The notes under the pieces were generated by a model, which searched no databases, had not been told where the DNA came from, and worked only from the letters and a program-made list of their open reading frames with translations. From Heliomicrobium modesticaldum Ice1 (lineage in GTDB: Bacteria; Bacillota; Desulfitobacteriia; Heliobacteriales; Heliobacteriaceae): DNA of 64,000 nucleotides. Both the position numbers and the translations under genes were made by a program. Below, one piece after another: positions 3,942 to 13,998 of the stretch (its first letter is position 1; each line of letters starts with the position of its first letter). The DNA is taken from contig NC_010337.2 in assembly GCF_000019165.1 (NCBI RefSeq), positions 785,501-849,500 of the forward strand. Direction: 5' to 3'.

Positions 3942-3978
3942 CCAAAACCGTAACAAAGTGACTTTATTACGGTTTTGG
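3942..3978. promoter_or_regulatory. 37-bp near-perfect palindrome
   Basis: CCAAAACCGTAA at 3942-3953 is the exact reverse complement of TTACGGTTTTGG at 3967-3978, and the interior continues the symmetry as AAAGT-G-ACTTT, with one mismatched pair. It lies between the SH3b gene and the tnpB remnant. It could be an operator for the SH3b gene, a terminator stem, or a hairpin belonging to the transposon end; the sequence alone does not decide. Confidence 0.7.
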
Positions 3979-4186
3979 CACGCTGGCGACTACCTCAGCG
4001 TGGGAAATCTCACAGGATTCGATTTCCTCGGATACAAGCCATCACTTGTACGCCATAGGCTGTTATCACCGCCTCCCCTAGCAAAGATAGGGAAGTCCAC
4101 CACAGCGAGGGGTGTTACCCCTTCCGTAAGGTTCACCGTCGTCTTCGCCTTTCACCGCCTGTACGAAGACGATTATGTACATTACG
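3979..4186 (-). ncRNA. Candidate TnpB-associated omega RNA region
   Basis: Downstream of the tnpB remnant, on the same strand, a run of short hairpins follows in close succession: 3979-4002 (CACGCTG/CAGCGTG), 4003-4027 (GGAAATC/GATTTCC), 4033-4050 (TACAAG/CTTGTA), 4076-4092 (CCCTA/TAGGG) and 4109-4121 (GGGGT/ACCCC). No open frame is conserved. In IS200/IS605 and IS607 elements this position encodes the omega (reRNA) guide RNA that starts within or just after tnpB and runs to the element's right end. The link to omega RNA is an inference from position and structure; the guide boundary cannot be fixed here. Confidence 0.45.
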
Positions 4187-4732
4187 CTACAAGTTCGAGG
4201 TTAGTCCGAGGATCTCTTTCCGGTGTGACCGCCAAAACTCAGGTGTTACACTTCCTTTCGTGATGATTTTCGCTTCTTTTTCGCTCCGCTGATGGATCAT
4301 GGCCCATCGTTTCCATTCGGTAGACGGACTTTTCGTCGGAAGGAGTTTTTCCCGCAAGAGCCTCGGGACTTTTTCTTTCATCCCATAGGCCCTTCGGGCA
4401 ATGACCAGGGCCGCGCCGTGGTGAACGTCCAGACCATACTGGTGGGTATACTTGTACAAGCCGATCTTCGACGTAAAGGCGGGCTTCACTTTCGTATACT
4501 CAATCCCGTTTCGGATACAGGCCCTTTCCAGCATCGTGAGCATTTGGCGATAGATGAAGTTGTGCCGGATGCGCGAGAATTTACGCCAGGTATCTTGGTC
4601 GTGTTAGAACTTCAAGTCCTCAAAGGCCACGCCGCATTGGCGATCCTTCGCGTATTGAATGACTTCCTTGACCATCTCGCCAATCAGATTTTCTCGTCGA
4701 TTGGCATTAAGAAGAGCCGGCGGCTTCCGCCA
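4187..4732 (-). pseudogene. tnpB: TnpB (IS200/IS605-type) remnant
   Basis: C-terminal part of an RNA-guided TnpB nuclease. Readable motifs: GVAFEDLKF (the RuvC-II glutamate), then after an in-frame TAA at 4604-4606 the same frame continues HDQDTWRKFSRIRHNFIYRQ, KPAFTSKIGLYKY and DVHHGAALVIARRAYG (the RuvC-III aspartate with the usual A-x2-IA-R tail). The N-terminal half, including the first RuvC aspartate, is missing; the 5' side abuts the 3' end of the wecA-like gene at 4749. No tnpA and no zinc-finger cysteine cluster are seen. With a stop and a 5' truncation this copy should make no active nuclease. Confidence 0.85.
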
Positions 4733-4748
4733 GGGCCCCGCCAACGGA

Positions 4749-6472: not shown

Positions 6473-6756
6473 CCGGTTCTGATGTTCAGTTCTGATACTC
6501 AGTTCTGATGCCCGTTCCGATGCCCGTTCCGATGCCCCGTTCCGATGCCCCGTTCCGACGCCCCGTTCTGATGCCCCGTTCCGATGCCCCGTTCCGACGC
6601 CCCGTTCCGATGCCCGTTCCGATGCCCCGTTCCGATGCCCGTTCCGATGCCCCGTTCCGATGCCCCGTTCCGACGCCCCGTTCCGATGCCCCGTTCCGAT
6701 GCCCCGTTCCGATGCCCCGTTCCGATGCCCCGTTCCGATGCCCGTTCCGATGATCG
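6473..6756. repeat. 12/13-bp tandem repeat array between divergent genes
   Basis: About twenty units of GTTCCGATGCCC(C), alternating 12 and 13 bp, with GAC and CTG variants, fill most of the gap between fabZ (minus) and the DUF4330 gene (plus). The mixed unit length keeps several frames open on both strands, giving spurious arginine/proline and glycine/threonine rich reading frames. Unlike the other arrays this one follows no gene end; it lies between two gene starts. Confidence 0.93.
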
Positions 6757-9053: not shown

Positions 9054-11069
9054 ATGATAACAGGTGAGGTGAATCTCCTGAATACCATTCAAACGGTTCA
9101 ACGGATAATTGTCAACAGTCTGGCCCGTCGAGGGGCCTTGTTTCTGTTCGCAACAGCGCGAAAAGGGGAAGCCTTCTGGCAGGCGAGCCGCTTTCACGGC
9201 CTGTTGGAAGGCTTCGTCGACACAGCGGCGAAAAGCCTTGCAGCCCGCTTTTTAGGCGGCGATCCCACGGCACGGCTGGCTTCGCGCCTCGCTTCGTCAG
9301 ACATCATAACATCGCTCAGAGAGCCCGGCCGAAAAATCGAGCAATCCCGTCAAGCCTTAATCGACGGCACCCGGGCCTTCGCCGAAGGCAGCATCGCCGC
9401 CGCTATCCTGCGCCACCTCGCCTGCCCCGAAGGCTGGCAACTGGCAGGACTGAGCCGAGCCGGCCTGGCTTTTTTGGCAGGGCTCTTTCTCGTCTTCGCG
9501 TCCCTCGGCGCCCTCTCCCTGAAGACGGGCCTGCTGTTGACCCTGTCGATCGTGCTGCTCTTTTTCCTGTCCCGTTCCCCTGTCACCATCGCCGAGATCT
9601 GGGCCGACTCCCTCCCGGGGCGCCTGTTCCGCTCTATTTTGCCGGAAGAACTGGTTCCGAGAGATGACCACTACCCGGTGGCGCCGCCGTTAAAAGGCGC
9701 CGGCGCTGCCGCGATGTACCTGTTGCTCTTCGCCCTCGGCGCTGTTCTGGCCCTTCTCTCGATAAAATGGCAAAACCTGCTGGTCCTGGCGCTGCCGGCT
9801 GTCCTGCTGGCGCCGGCCTTGCTCTTCCTGCGGCCGGAGTTAGGGCTGTTGGGGCTGATCGGCTATTCGGTCGTCGATTGGTGGATGCGGATGAAGCCGA
9901 ATTTGCTGACCAGCGTCTGGGATGACCTCCTGCTGGCGTCGCTCGCTGCCGCCCTGATCGGCCAGTGGGTGACGAAACGGGACTTCCGCTGGCGCATCCA
10001 CCCCACCTTCTTCGCCCTCACCGCTTTCATCTCACTGCTGCTTTTTCTCTTCCTCATCGATTCCACCTACCCGCGGCTCTCGGTGCCCCTCGACGGCCTG
10101 CGCGTCATCGTCCAGCACATGCTCTGGTTCTATATAGCCGTCCAACTGGTCAAAACCCCAAGGCAAGCCGCCCTCCTGCTGATCCTGTTTACCTTGGTCG
10201 GTACAGCCATTGCCGCCTTCGGCGTCTACCAGTTCATCGTCAAAGCGCCCATGCCGGAGAACTGGGTCGACCAGGCGGAGTTGGGCAGCATCACCACCCG
10301 CGCCTTCTCCATCGTCGGCAGTCCCAACATCCTGGGCAGCCTCCTCGTCTTGACGACACCGATCGCGCTCGGTCTGGCCTATCGCGGCAAGACGATTCAG
10401 CGCCTCTTCTATCTCGCCTGCGCCGCCTTGATGGGCGCCTCCATGCTCTTTAGCTTCTCCCGCGGCGCCTGGCTGGCCATCGCAGCGGCCATCATCCTCT
10501 TCGGCATCTTACAAGACCGCCGGCTGATCGCCCTGCTGATCATCGGCGCCATCCTCCTCCCCATCGCCTCGCCTGCTGCGGCCGACCGCGTCAGTTACCT
10601 GCTGAGTCCCGAGTATTTCAAAAAATCCGCCCAAGACGGCCGTCTGGAGCGTTGGGACCTGGCCTTGGAGAAGGTGGCGCAGCGCCCCCTCACCGGCATC
10701 GGCCTAGGGCGCTACGGCGGCGCCGCCGCCGAGAACAATAAGGAGTATCTTCCCCACCGGACGCTCTATACAGACAACTACTACATGAAAACGGCCGCCG
10801 AGACCGGGCTGCTCGGCCTCTTCGCCTTCATCGCCCTCATGGTCTCCGTCCTGCGCACCGCCTTCGGAACAGCCATCCATTCCCCGCCGCCCCGCCGCGC
10901 CCTGGCCATCGGCGTCGCCTGCGGGCTCTTCGGCGTCGTGCTGCACAACGCCGTAGAAAACGTCTTTGAAGTACCGCTGATGGTGACGTCATTTTGGTTG
11001 TGCGCCGCCCTGTTGTGGGAGTTGCGCTCCAACACGCAAGCCCTCACGACAAAATCATTGGACACCTAA
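9054..11069 (+). CDS. O-antigen ligase/polymerase (Wzy/WaaL family)
   Basis: 671-residue polytopic membrane protein. The N-terminal 140 residues are amphipathic and soluble-looking; about a dozen membrane helices follow, and the O-antigen ligase domain is seen around residues 370-600, with the conserved periplasmic-loop pattern (ITTRAFSIVGSPNILG, FSFSRGAWLAI and RPLTGIGLGRYGG). Such proteins polymerise lipid-linked repeat units or transfer them to an acceptor. The start is uncertain: the ATG at 9054 leaves only about 10 bp to the divergent glycosyltransferase; a GTG at 9069 is possible. A terminator hairpin follows the stop. Confidence 0.87.
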   Translation: MITGEVNLLNTIQTVQRIIVNSLARRGALFLFATARKGEAFWQASRFHGLLEGFVDTAAKSLAARFLGGDPTARLASRLASSDIITSLREPGRKIEQSRQALIDGTRAFAEGSIAAAILRHLACPEGWQLAGLSRAGLAFLAGLFLVFASLGALSLKTGLLLTLSIVLLFFLSRSPVTIAEIWADSLPGRLFRSILPEELVPRDDHYPVAPPLKGAGAAAMYLLLFALGAVLALLSIKWQNLLVLALPAVLLAPALLFLRPELGLLGLIGYSVVDWWMRMKPNLLTSVWDDLLLASLAAALIGQWVTKRDFRWRIHPTFFALTAFISLLLFLFLIDSTYPRLSVPLDGLRVIVQHMLWFYIAVQLVKTPRQAALLLILFTLVGTAIAAFGVYQFIVKAPMPENWVDQAELGSITTRAFSIVGSPNILGSLLVLTTPIALGLAYRGKTIQRLFYLACAALMGASMLFSFSRGAWLAIAAAIILFGILQDRRLIALLIIGAILLPIASPAAADRVSYLLSPEYFKKSAQDGRLERWDLALEKVAQRPLTGIGLGRYGGAAAENNKEYLPHRTLYTDNYYMKTAAETGLLGLFAFIALMVSVLRTAFGTAIHSPPPRRALAIGVACGLFGVVLHNAVENVFEVPLMVTSFWLCAALLWELRSNTQALTTKSLDT

Positions 11070-11073
11070 AAAA

Positions 11074-11104
11074 GCCACCCCTGTGGCGGGGTGGCTTCCC
11101 TCTA
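11074..11104 (+). terminator. Rho-independent terminator-like hairpin
   Basis: GCCACCCC (11074-11081) pairs perfectly with GGGGTGGC (11088-11095) around a 6-nt loop, five bases after the O-antigen ligase stop. The tail TTCCCTCTATCCTT is only moderately T-rich. Confidence 0.75.
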
Positions 11105-11162
11105 TCCTTCATGAACTGATAAGGAAAGATTCGGTGATTTTTCAACTTGGGAGGGACGTCCT

Positions 11163-11540
11163 GTGCCAAAACCATTCCTCGCCTGGGACTCGCTGCTGCT
11201 GATCGCAATCAACATCACCCTGCTCTTAGCCGGTCAGACCTTATGGAAAATCGGGCTGCAAAAGATCGGCGGCTTCAGCCTCGCCCACCTTCCGGCGGCA
11301 GCCTTCTCCCCCTGGATCGTGGCCGGGCTTGTCCTGTATGTCATCGCCACCGGCGTCTGGTTTCTCATCCTCTCCCGGATAGACTTCAGCCTGGCCTATC
11401 CGCTCCAGAGCCTCGCCTTCGTCTTCGGCGTCTTCCTGGGTTGGCTGGTTTTTCAAGAAACCATCCCCTGGACGCGCTGGGTCGGCGTCGCCGTCATCAT
11501 CTTCGGCGTCTATCTGGTAGCGCTGCCGGTGAGGCAGTGA
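11163..11540 (+). CDS. EmrE/ArnE-like four-helix transporter
   Basis: 125 residues with four membrane helices, of the drug/metabolite transporter superfamily (SMR/EamA type). The pattern LLLAGQTLWKIGLQKIGGF at the N terminus, SRIDFSLAYPLQSLAFVFG in helix 3 and GVAVIIFGVYLV in helix 4 resembles ArnE/ArnF-type flippase subunits and short SMR proteins. Next to an O-antigen ligase and glycosyltransferases, flipping of a lipid-linked sugar is a reasonable guess, but drug export cannot be excluded. The start is GTG at 11163, with GGGAGG 8 nt upstream. Its last codons (GAGGCAGTGA) open a 13-bp repeat. Confidence 0.8.
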   Translation: MPKPFLAWDSLLLIAINITLLLAGQTLWKIGLQKIGGFSLAHLPAAAFSPWIVAGLVLYVIATGVWFLILSRIDFSLAYPLQSLAFVFGVFLGWLVFQETIPWTRWVGVAVIIFGVYLVALPVRQ

Positions 11541-11595
11541 TATGAAGCAGTGATATGAGGCAGTGATATGAGGCAGTGATATGAGGCAGTGATAC
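11530..11595. repeat. 13-bp repeat seeded by a gene end
   Basis: GAGGCAGTGATAT, made of the last two codons and the stop of the EmrE-like gene plus four bases, is repeated four to five times (TGATATGAAGCAG, TGATATGAGGCAG, three identical copies, then a broken one). Confidence 0.93.
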
Positions 11596-11620
11596 CAGAC
11601 AAAGGCGTCAAGAACATGAG

Positions 11621-11723
11621 CCTAAGTCACGCCTGTAAATCCTTTTGCCAACAAACTGGACAAACTCAAACCGCTTCACTTGCAGGATGATCCTAAGTCA
11701 CGCCTGTAAATCCTTTTGCCAAC
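11621..11723. repeat. Two 32-bp direct repeats
   Basis: An identical 32-bp sequence starting CCTAAGTCACGCCTG and ending TTTTGCCAAC is present at 11621-11652 and 11692-11723, 71 bp apart. The rest of 11724-11915 shows no gene I can support. Confidence 0.9.
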
Positions 11724-11915
11724 CCTGCCGATATGCTCAAGCAAGTCGGGGTTTTGAATCTTTCAAACTTGCCTTTGTTTTGAACCTCTTGCATACAGAT
11801 GTTGTCAGTATGGCCACTGGTTGCTCCATTTTATCCCTGCGCTTTTGGGTTCATTGTACTACAGCCGTTCCTTCTCATCAAGCAGCCGCCCTTGACGGAA
11901 AATGATTTTTATCAC

Positions 11916-11951
11916 CAAAAAGACCGAAAGGTTCACCCCTCCGGTCTTTTA
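11916..11951. terminator. Bidirectional terminator-like hairpin
   Basis: AAAAGACCG (11917-11925) pairs with CGGTCTTTT (11942-11950). The flanking A and T runs let it work on both strands. It lies between the convergent EmrE-like gene and the GT4 gene ending at 12112. Confidence 0.7.
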
Positions 11952-12008
11952 ATCTATAGGATATTAACAAAGTCACAGCCACCAGCTACCGGCGTGAGAT
12001 TGCCTGCG

Positions 12009-12118
12009 GTCTTTCATTCTATAGGGGCCAAAAGTCCTACTCATGAGCTGCTGTGGCCTCATGGTTTGATGTGGCCAAGTCCCGTCTTTCATTCCATAGG
12101 GGCCAAAAGACCTACTCA
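12009..12118. repeat. Duplicated 35-bp segment overlapping a gene end
   Basis: A 35-bp sequence (starting GTCTTTCATTC, ending CCTACTCA) occurs at 12009-12043 and again, with two or three mismatches, at 12084-12118, a 75-bp step. The second copy contains the last glutamate codon and TAG stop of the glycosyltransferase, so the repeat was copied from the gene's 3' end. Confidence 0.88.
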
Positions 12119-13245
12119 GGACCGTCCACCAATTCCCGATAGAGATTCTGCGTCTTCTCGGCCATCCGTTTGGCCGTAAATCGCTCTTCGATCGTCTTGC
12201 GGGCCGCTTCGCCAAACCGTCGCGCTTCCTCCCGGTTCTCAATCAGCCGGAGCAAGGCGGCGGCCAACGCGAGGGCATCTCCGGGGGGAATGACCAGACC
12301 ATTTTTTTCGTTGGCCACGATCTCCGGATTGCCTCCGACAGCCGTCACCACCGCCGGGCACTCACAGAGCATGCCCTCCATCAAAGTCAGGCTGAGTCCC
12401 TCCGAGAGGGAGGGCAGCGCCAACACATCAAGGGCGCGATAGATATCGGCAATGTCTTCGCGAAAGCCGGTGAATAAAAAAAAGGATTCCAGTCCCTCTT
12501 CCCGGATGACGGTTTCAATCACGTTGCGATAAAAACCGTCCCCTACCAACAGGAACCGGATATGGCTGTTGATTTTCAGGATCTCCTTGGCGGCTTCAAC
12601 AAGATACTTGTGCCCCTTCACGGGATGAAACCGACCGACCATCCCGATCAAAGGCGCATCTGCAGCAATCCCGAACTCGACCCGTACGTCCCTGTTCCTT
12701 TCTGCATTGACAAATTTTTCATCATCGACACCATTGTGGATGACAGATACTTTCGCCGCTGCCATCCCTTGCGCACAAAGCCTCTTCTTCAGAAAATCGG
12801 CCACAACGATGGTTCTTTCCGTCAAAGGCGCTGTTATCTTCTCAGACCAATAATTGATCCAGCGGGCCACCCTGTCAGGATAGTCATTCTCCAAAACACT
12901 ATGCACCGTCGTCACAATGCAACGCACACCGGCAAGCTTCGCCGCCAATCGTCCGACTAAGTTTGCCCGTACGCCATGCGTATGAACGATGGCCGGCTGA
13001 AGCTGACGGATCAGCCGGAAAACCTTCCAAAAGCCGGCCAGATCGGCCTTGCTTCGCATTGGCACCGCCGTCGCCTGCACCCCTTGCTTCAAAGCGCGCT
13101 GCAAAAGCGGCGCCGGAAAAAGGCAACAGAGGTGCAGCTCTACTTCTTGCGGTGAAAAGAATCTGGCTAAGTCCAGGATGTGGATCTCGGCGCCGCCGAT
13201 TTCCCCGCCGCCTATGATGTGTAAAACCCGGATTGGCCTGGACAT
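12112..13245 (-). CDS. Glycosyltransferase family 4
   Basis: 377 residues, complete GT-B fold. N-terminal acceptor domain: RVLHIIGGGEIGGAEIHILD and PAIVHTHGVRANLVGRLAAK; C-terminal donor domain: LIGMVGRFHPVKGHKYLVEA, FLFTGFREDIADIYRALDVL and the GT4 signature SEGLSLTLMEGMLCECPAV with the EX7E glutamates. Such enzymes retain the anomeric configuration and use a nucleotide sugar. The ATG at 13243-13245 is taken because GGGGAG precedes it by about 6 nt. It is alone on its strand, with a repeat behind its stop and about 220 bp of featureless spacer before the next gene. Confidence 0.9.
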   Translation of the reverse strand: MSRPIRVLHIIGGGEIGGAEIHILDLARFFSPQEVELHLCCLFPAPLLQRALKQGVQATAVPMRSKADLAGFWKVFRLIRQLQPAIVHTHGVRANLVGRLAAKLAGVRCIVTTVHSVLENDYPDRVARWINYWSEKITAPLTERTIVVADFLKKRLCAQGMAAAKVSVIHNGVDDEKFVNAERNRDVRVEFGIAADAPLIGMVGRFHPVKGHKYLVEAAKEILKINSHIRFLLVGDGFYRNVIETVIREEGLESFFLFTGFREDIADIYRALDVLALPSLSEGLSLTLMEGMLCECPAVVTAVGGNPEIVANEKNGLVIPPGDALALAAALLRLIENREEARRFGEAARKTIEERFTAKRMAEKTQNLYRELVDGPE

Positions 13246-13464
13246 GGACTCTCCCCCATCGCCAGAAGTCACTATTCATTATAGCGAGGCCACAAAAGTA
13301 AAACAAGCATACCGCCCAGGTGACTGCCGCCAGAATACACAGGAAACAGCACTGCTATCATCATCTTCCACAACAGCCAACGCCTTTTACCCGTTTGTCA
13401 CTTCAGCCCATCAAAGGTGGCCTTGATGTTCTTAAGCAGATCTGCCACACCTTTTACCCGGTCG

Positions 13465-13998
13465 TCACTTCAGCCCGCCGCGCGAAGGCGCCCCTTCCCC
13501 GCACGAAGGCGCCCCTTCCCCGCACGAAGGCGCTGCTTCTCCGCATAAGGGCGCCGCTTCCCCGCACGAAGGCGCCGCTTCTCCGCACGAAGGCGCCCCT
13601 TCCCCGCAAAGAGGCGCCGCTTGCCCGCAGAAAGGCGCCGCCGTCTTGTAGACGCCTTGTAGCCGGCGCACCTCTTCGTCAAGGATCGCCACCACCTGGG
13701 CCAATTCCTTATTCGACTCCTTTAATTGCGAGATATGGCTGGCTTGCCGGTACAAGATGACGAGAATGAAAAGGATACCCAGAAAAAAGAGCAGCGCCGG
13801 CTGATAAGCCACCCCCAGATAATCTGCCATCCCGTCGACCAGCCCCGGCCGAATTGCTAAAAATAAAATCGCCAGCGTTCCTGCCAGCCAGTACATGGAC
13901 TCTTTCTCGCTCAGGCGGTTGTTTTTTACCTTATGGATCACATAGAGGGCAAAGGCGGCGGCGACAATGCGGACAAACCAGATCAGCTTCCAGCTCAC
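13465..13998 (-). CDS. DUF2304 membrane protein with cysteine-rich repeat tail
   Basis: 177 residues. Residues 1-115 are a DUF2304 protein: three membrane helices and a short coiled coil (HISQLKESNKELAQVVAIL). DUF2304 proteins are partners of GT2 enzymes that glycosylate a polyprenyl phosphate, and here the start codon GTG overlaps the GT2 stop (GTGA), implying translational coupling. The last 55 residues are seven or eight copies of a 7-residue unit, CGE(A/G)AP(S/L), coded by a 21-bp DNA repeat; this tail is not part of DUF2304 and brings a cysteine every seventh residue on the end of the protein. Confidence 0.85.
   Translation of the reverse strand: MSWKLIWFVRIVAAAFALYVIHKVKNNRLSEKESMYWLAGTLAILFLAIRPGLVDGMADYLGVAYQPALLFFLGILFILVILYRQASHISQLKESNKELAQVVAILDEEVRRLQGVYKTAAPFCGQAAPLCGEGAPSCGEAAPSCGEAAPLCGEAAPSCGEGAPSCGEGAPSRGGLK
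13478..13645. repeat. 21-bp in-frame repeat in DUF2304 gene
   Basis: Seven to eight near-identical 21-bp units (for example CGCCCCTTCCCCGCACGAAG) at the extreme 3' end of the gene, coding a heptapeptide with one cysteine. Confidence 0.93.

Follow-up and report, generated by a model that had tools for sequence, protein, structure and literature searches.

A 13-bp tandem array at the end of a heliobacterial transporter gene: probably a young minisatellite that originated from the end of this gene

Bacterial minisatellites are tandem repeats with units of about 9–100 bp, and a VNTR is defined by variation of the copy number between strains. The birth of such repeats has been described for the penA beta-lactamase gene. 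According to the accessible part of that report, tandem repeats arose de novo under drug selection by duplication of coding segments. They were born between short direct repeats, and same-strand complementary sequences were named as an alternative association (PMC4169377). A literature search that joined heliobacteria with tandem repeats yielded nothing relevant; the original genome paper of Heliomicrobium modesticaldum Ice1 was outside its scope. In the main texts of three heliobacterial papers (among PMC9147875, PMC13209566, PMC7143216, and PMC2884548), the word "tandem" did not occur, and the word "repeat" was used 0, 3, and 2 times, in the passages displayed in connection with CRISPR or assembly.

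The DNA analyzed here, called the window, is a stretch of 64,000 nucleotides from the genome of Ice1 (genome positions 785,501–849,500; dnaA is located at 1,088,241). It contains a small transporter gene that carries a tandem array at its 3′ end (Table 1). The gene ahead of the transporter gene encodes an O-antigen-ligase domain, and the transporter gene is convergent with a glycosyltransferase gene. When the contigs of other genomes were searched with the transporter, three Bacteroidetes loci with 42–44% identity were found.

A sequence-only reading had placed a 13-bp duplication series with four to five nearly undiverged copies at 11527–11597 of the window. Both the span and the unit were correct, the latter in another register, and the repeat was confirmed with TRF (period 13, 5.0 copies, 96% matches, score 123). 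The array consists of five abutting head-to-tail units, which are TGAGGCAGTGATA, TGAAGCAGTGATA, and then three times TGAGGCAGTGATA. The sole substitution among the copies is a change from G to A at the fourth base of copy 2 (11543–11555), and four of the five units are identical, in agreement with the claimed near absence of divergence. The copy number could be narrowed down to five complete units, and a sixth unit is at most partial and decayed. The start of the series had been assigned to the stop codon of the transporter gene, and this had to be revised. The array begins 11 bases inside the gene, and these final 11 bases, including the TGA stop codon, are the opening 11 bases of copy 1.

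The similarity of the copies is far beyond chance. In a self-comparison of the array at an offset of 13, 50 of 52 positions matched, whereas the best 52-base stretch reached 29 matches in 30 simulated 64-kb sequences, which were generated with a first-order Markov model trained on the window. Elsewhere in the window, one stretch matched at 52 of 52 positions at the same offset, and this is likely the 13-bp TRF array at 6476–6752. A search of the whole genome (a single contig of 3,075,407 bp) with two joined units, allowing up to 3 mismatches, yielded four matches, all of them within the array.

Table 1. Features of the transporter gene, the convergent gene, and the region between them (window positions)
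Feature	Position	Strand	Basis
Gene for a small EamA/EmrE-like transporter of 125 aa, with GTG start	11163–11540	+	ORF; Pfam EamA 35.5 bits, cut-off 28.2
Tandem array of five 13-bp units (TGAGGCAGTGATA)	11530–11594	+	TRF; unit-by-unit reading
37-bp repeat pair, 11616–11652 and 11687–11723, spacing 71, 97% alike	11616–11723	+	Repeat analysis
Hairpin and short T run	11918–11950		Inverted repeat; RNA fold −13.6 kcal/mol, z −3.0
38-bp repeat pair, 12009–12046 and 12084–12121, spacing 75, 92% alike	12009–12121	−	Repeat analysis
Convergent glycosyltransferase gene, 386 aa	12112–13272	−	Pfam Glycos_transf_1, E 1.6e-39

The array is part of an intergenic region that is considerably longer than in the nearest relative. 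The distance between the stop codons of the transporter gene and the glycosyltransferase gene is 571 bp, compared with 90 bp in the sister genome G001 (114 bp by match ends). Two further repeat pairs are found in this region, and the 13-bp array is its only unbroken tandem run. The bases between the two 37-bp copies are unrepeated, and the 31-base core of this repeat has two copies genome-wide (up to 3 mismatches). The copy of the 38-bp pair at 12084–12121 spans the final 10 bases of the convergent gene, including its stop codon, and therefore the end of this gene is inferred to be the source of the pair. Neither the pair of 13-bp units nor the flanking repeats have further copies elsewhere in the genome, and a mobile or dispersed element is therefore unlikely. 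The predicted hairpin, about 380 bp past the transporter stop codon, is likely the terminator of both convergent genes.

The locus, as present in a single genome of this species, was compared with two sister species, each represented by one draft genome (G001 and G002, about 70 and 50 contigs). In G001, the nearest relative compared, the transporter match is 87% identical, and the gene end contains GGTGAGGCAGTAA as a single copy. It reads CTGCCGGTGAGGCAGTAA, followed by different bases, and both a second unit and the array are absent. In G002, the transporter gene ends with GCCGGCGAGGCCCTAA, the array is again absent, and the orthologue of the glycosyltransferase gene is found about 3.3 kb further on. 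The single-copy end in G001 supports the claim of the sequence-only reading that the gene end had been copied. Copy 1 thus represents the ancestral end of the gene, to which copies 2–5 were added in this lineage.

Short-read assemblies fail at repeats, and the draft state of the two sister genomes could mean that the difference is an assembly artefact, either a false expansion here or a collapse of the array in the sisters. This is highly unlikely. With 65 bp, the array is shorter than the usual read length, and collinear matches are located on one contig per sister (C5 of G001 and C6 of G002). In addition, a collapse would leave at least one unit and the right flank, whereas in G001 CAACTAGTAGG directly follows the stop codon.

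To date the expansion, the divergence of the copies can be set against that of the species. At the four-fold sites of six gene pairs, i.e., the transporter gene and five neighbours, 330 of 758 positions (0.44) differ between this genome and G001, compared with one change among the copies of the array. This suggests that the last expansion is recent relative to the species split, or that the copies have been kept alike by turnover. Of the 67 arrays that reach a score of 80 and comprise 2.5 copies or more (median match score 91), 55 rank lower than the 96% of this array, which is high but not extreme. The array had been called young, and its absence from both sisters as well as its near-identical copies speak for this age, but the similarity of the copies could also result from recent turnover in an older array. 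Taken together, the array is very probably a young, lineage-specific minisatellite that was seeded from the transporter's own 3′ end.

In the proposed sequence of events, a segment of 13 bases across the last codons and the stop codon would have been duplicated in tandem, and the duplicate would then have expanded to five copies. Replication slippage or unequal exchange between copies would be the most likely mechanism, as is generally accepted for tandem repeats. Inspection of the G001 gene end by eye revealed no direct repeats spaced 13 bp apart from which the first duplication might have been primed. The original coding end and the stop codon are retained as copy 1, which leaves the protein unaltered, and the added copies only extend the distance between the stop codon and the hairpin terminator. 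The array is thus most likely neutral or nearly so, and its copy number may be unstable at present.

A contribution of selection was also considered. The array might be an old element that is kept uniform, for example a 3′ regulatory element or an mRNA-stability element of the transporter gene. The identity of four of the five copies would fit such a function, as would the location between the stop codon and the likely terminator, where the array is probably transcribed. However, the two sisters lack the array, although the transporter genes are otherwise conserved. Moreover, the RNA fold over the array was no better than that of shuffled sequences (z 0.07), and no Rfam family reached the gathering threshold in the window region 10900–13400. 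Selection on an old element is therefore a very improbable explanation.

The units could also be read as a row of translated minigenes that are coupled to the upstream stop codon. A Shine-Dalgarno-like GAGG, seven bases, an ATG, two codons, and a stop codon can be read directly in the units, and the four ATGs at 11542, 11555, 11568, and 11581 would yield M-R-Q-stop three times and M-K-Q-stop once. It is nevertheless extremely unlikely that the array exists for this reason. We regard the motif as a by-product, since the gene end that was copied already reads GTGAGGCAGTGA; moreover, the design is absent from the two sister genomes, and the second ATG is preceded by GAAG instead of GAGG. In summary, a young minisatellite born from the gene end is in best agreement with the results, and the locus represents a well-anchored case of minisatellite birth, as its seed can still be recognized in one of the sisters. 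The protein is spared because the stop codon was copied along with the gene end.

The sequence-only reading had regarded the array as an early stage of a process that also operates elsewhere. This expectation was borne out, as further arrays in the window and in the sampled genome, some of them over gene ends, resemble it with more decay. The frequency of such arrays was quantified with TRF in 1,525 kb of this genome, i.e., the window and 80 stretches, together about half of the genome, and in 400 kb each of the relatives G001, G002, and G003. Arrays with a score of at least 80 numbered 89 here (58 per Mb), compared with 5 (12.5 per Mb), 1 (2.5 per Mb), and 5 (12.5 per Mb) in the three relatives. 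A dense zone at 719–1006 kb is over-represented among the 89 arrays, and the stretches were partly added in or beside this zone after the first results. Outside the dense zone, about 1,238 kb contained 44 arrays of this score. The initial 20 stretches, which were nearly evenly spaced, contributed 16 in 400 kb. At a lower threshold of 50, the contrast became much smaller, with 82 arrays per Mb in the first samples of this genome (window included) versus 60, 55, and 58 per Mb in G001, G002, and G003. Block shuffles of the same samples yielded 1, 1, 4, and 2 arrays at this threshold. Two TRF rows at genome positions 602885–603535 share a period of 63 bp, contain CCCCGCGCACGCGGGGAA, and form one CRISPR-like array; they are included in the counts of 89, 44, and 16 and were dropped from the replichore and gene-end tests described below. 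The genome is unusually rich in such repeat arrays, and this context is less ordinary than the single locus.

The difference between the species was also evident in collinear DNA. The block at 700–931 kb of this genome contains 35 arrays with a score of at least 80, and part of it has no sister match at the identity threshold of 55%. No such array was found in 220 kb of the collinear contig C6 of G002 or in 140 kb of C5 of G001 from 60 kb on. The lone strong array that was sampled on C5 is located at the contig start, outside the collinear part. Adjacent gene pairs with an array between them are further apart here than in the sisters, with median differences of 296 bp for 11 pairs compared with G001 and 178.5 bp for 20 pairs compared with G002. 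For array-free pairs, the median differences were −18 bp (38 pairs, G001) and −9.5 bp (102 pairs, G002). This comparison was restricted to pairs separated by no more than 2.5 kb in both genomes, the sister ends are tblastn match ends, and one or two pairs span a further gene that holds the array. With dozens of arrays here and few in the sisters, this collinear block offers a natural test of why tandem duplications accumulate in a particular lineage and chromosome zone.

Several features of the window and the genome stand beside these results. From about 16000 to 55000, the window is mostly of lower GC content (37–54% in 4-kb bins). This region is located inside the dense zone, and no TRF array with a score of at least 50 was found in it. 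The genes at about 26–52.5 kb of the window had no match of at least 55% identity in the sampled stretches of G002, and the region is perhaps an acquired island that has gained no arrays. In the gene at 13465–13998 on the minus strand, a 21-bp array forms the C-terminal part of the protein, with 7-residue repeats such as EAAPSCG. Of its 177 residues, the sister proteins align to residues 1–115 (G001) and 1–125 (G002). Since the alignment is limited to the first part, the protein probably became longer in this lineage through the array. At 3946–4748 of the window, 803 bases lie between two conserved neighbours, compared with 84 and 108 bases in the sisters; a gene of 118 aa was called within this segment, which contains no TRF array. 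Near dnaA, at genome positions 1080880–1080972, a 37-bp unit is present in 2.5 copies. It contains TGTTTCACGTGAAACA, which we take to be the ParB-binding parS motif, and the site is perhaps a tandemly duplicated centromere-like site.

The arrays are not distributed evenly along the chromosome. The 287 kb of the dense zone hold 45 of the 79 arrays with a score of at least 80 that were counted in 1,225 kb, and these are found both in genes and between them. Their density is 4.3-fold higher than in the rest (binomial P 1.6e-10), a P value that is descriptive because the borders of the zone were drawn after the data had been seen. Within the zone, the segment at 802–870 kb is nearly empty (1 array of this score in 68 kb). 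In 140 bins of 10 kb, none of the rank correlations of array density with GC content, non-coding share, and distance from the origin was significant (0.13, 0.08, and −0.13). A strong asymmetry between the replichores had to be rejected. Initially, one non-genic array with a score of at least 80 was known between dnaA and 2.5 Mb, and 20 fresh stretches from the right side yielded six more, resulting in 7 arrays in 715 kb on the right versus 15 in 510 kb on the left outside the dense zone (P 0.016).

Five repair-gene families with a possible influence on repeat stability were also analyzed, and the loss of such a gene was rejected as the cause. SbcD, MutS2, PolA, and RecJ exceeded the family cut-offs in this genome as well as in G001, G002, G003, and G006. 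MutS did so in four of the five genomes, this one included, and was found in two pieces on two contigs in G006. G001 and G002 encode a further MutS2-like protein with about 630 bits (G001:C19:31077-32639 and G002:C12:33671-35203), for which no counterpart was seen in G003, G006, or the genome analyzed here. Its absence alone is no explanation because G003, with its few arrays, also lacks it. We tentatively consider that a lineage-specific burst of tandem duplication might have occurred, concentrated to the left of the origin (about 0.72–1.01 Mb, with dnaA at 1.088 Mb) and caused by a regional, heritable difference in copying or repair instead of selection. Unrelated sequences would have been hit, gene ends included, and the 13-bp array would be one of the products. 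Such a burst is possible, although we would not regard it as the probable explanation.

Next, the importance of the stop codon for the location of the arrays was analyzed. The 75 non-genic arrays include 13 that overlap a gene 3′ end, compared with 8.1 expected (P 0.059), and 5 that overlap a gene 5′ end, compared with 9.0 expected (P 0.098). The expectations were obtained by simulated placement at random positions with at most one unit overlapping a gene. In the subset with a score of at least 80, 11 of 53 arrays overlap gene 3′ ends versus 6.8 expected (P 0.054). The placement test is weak because the gene caller is crude, with a coding fraction of 0.81 over 840 kb; the available text of PMC9147875 gives a coding share of 90.6% for Ice1. 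Targeting of stop codons was rejected, since the excess at 3′ ends is only marginal and random seeding together with mild loss at gene starts suffices. The overlap with the stop codon, which had been thought to be special, is thus not clearly so. Gene-end arrays can persist without targeting because a tandem copy that spans the stop codon leaves the protein intact. The clearest gene-end arrays with an orthologue in a sister are those at genome positions 788385 and 915789.

The comparison with known systems did not yield equally good agreement in all cases. The array shares with CRISPR arrays that its repeats are located in an intergenic region. In contrast to CRISPR arrays, the 13-bp units abut with a spacing of 13 throughout, and this class was rejected because unique spacers are lacking. 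A dispersed intergenic repeat family of the REP type was rejected because the copies are local and not numerous, and an RNA family was rejected because the locus has no Rfam match. The penA repeats, as described in the accessible part of the report (PMC4169377), are similar in that a new tandem repeat is templated by part of a gene that had been present once. They differ in that penA has two units within the coding region versus five units at the gene end here, that the penA repeats arose under drug selection whereas no selection is known here, and that direct repeats or same-strand complementary sequences accompany the penA repeats whereas no bordering direct repeat was seen by eye here. The agreement is closest with bacterial minisatellites and VNTRs, with which the array shares the short unit, the near-identical head-to-tail copies, the restriction to one locus, the position outside essential sequence, and the absence from related species. 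The head-to-tail order of the units, a similarity beyond chance, and a local origin of the unit, the pair of which occurs at the array only and the seed of which is single-copy at the G001 gene end, all characterize it as a minisatellite. In summary, the array is a bacterial minisatellite of a known kind and a candidate VNTR, and if the copy numbers prove variable, array loci of this genome could serve as typing markers for the species.
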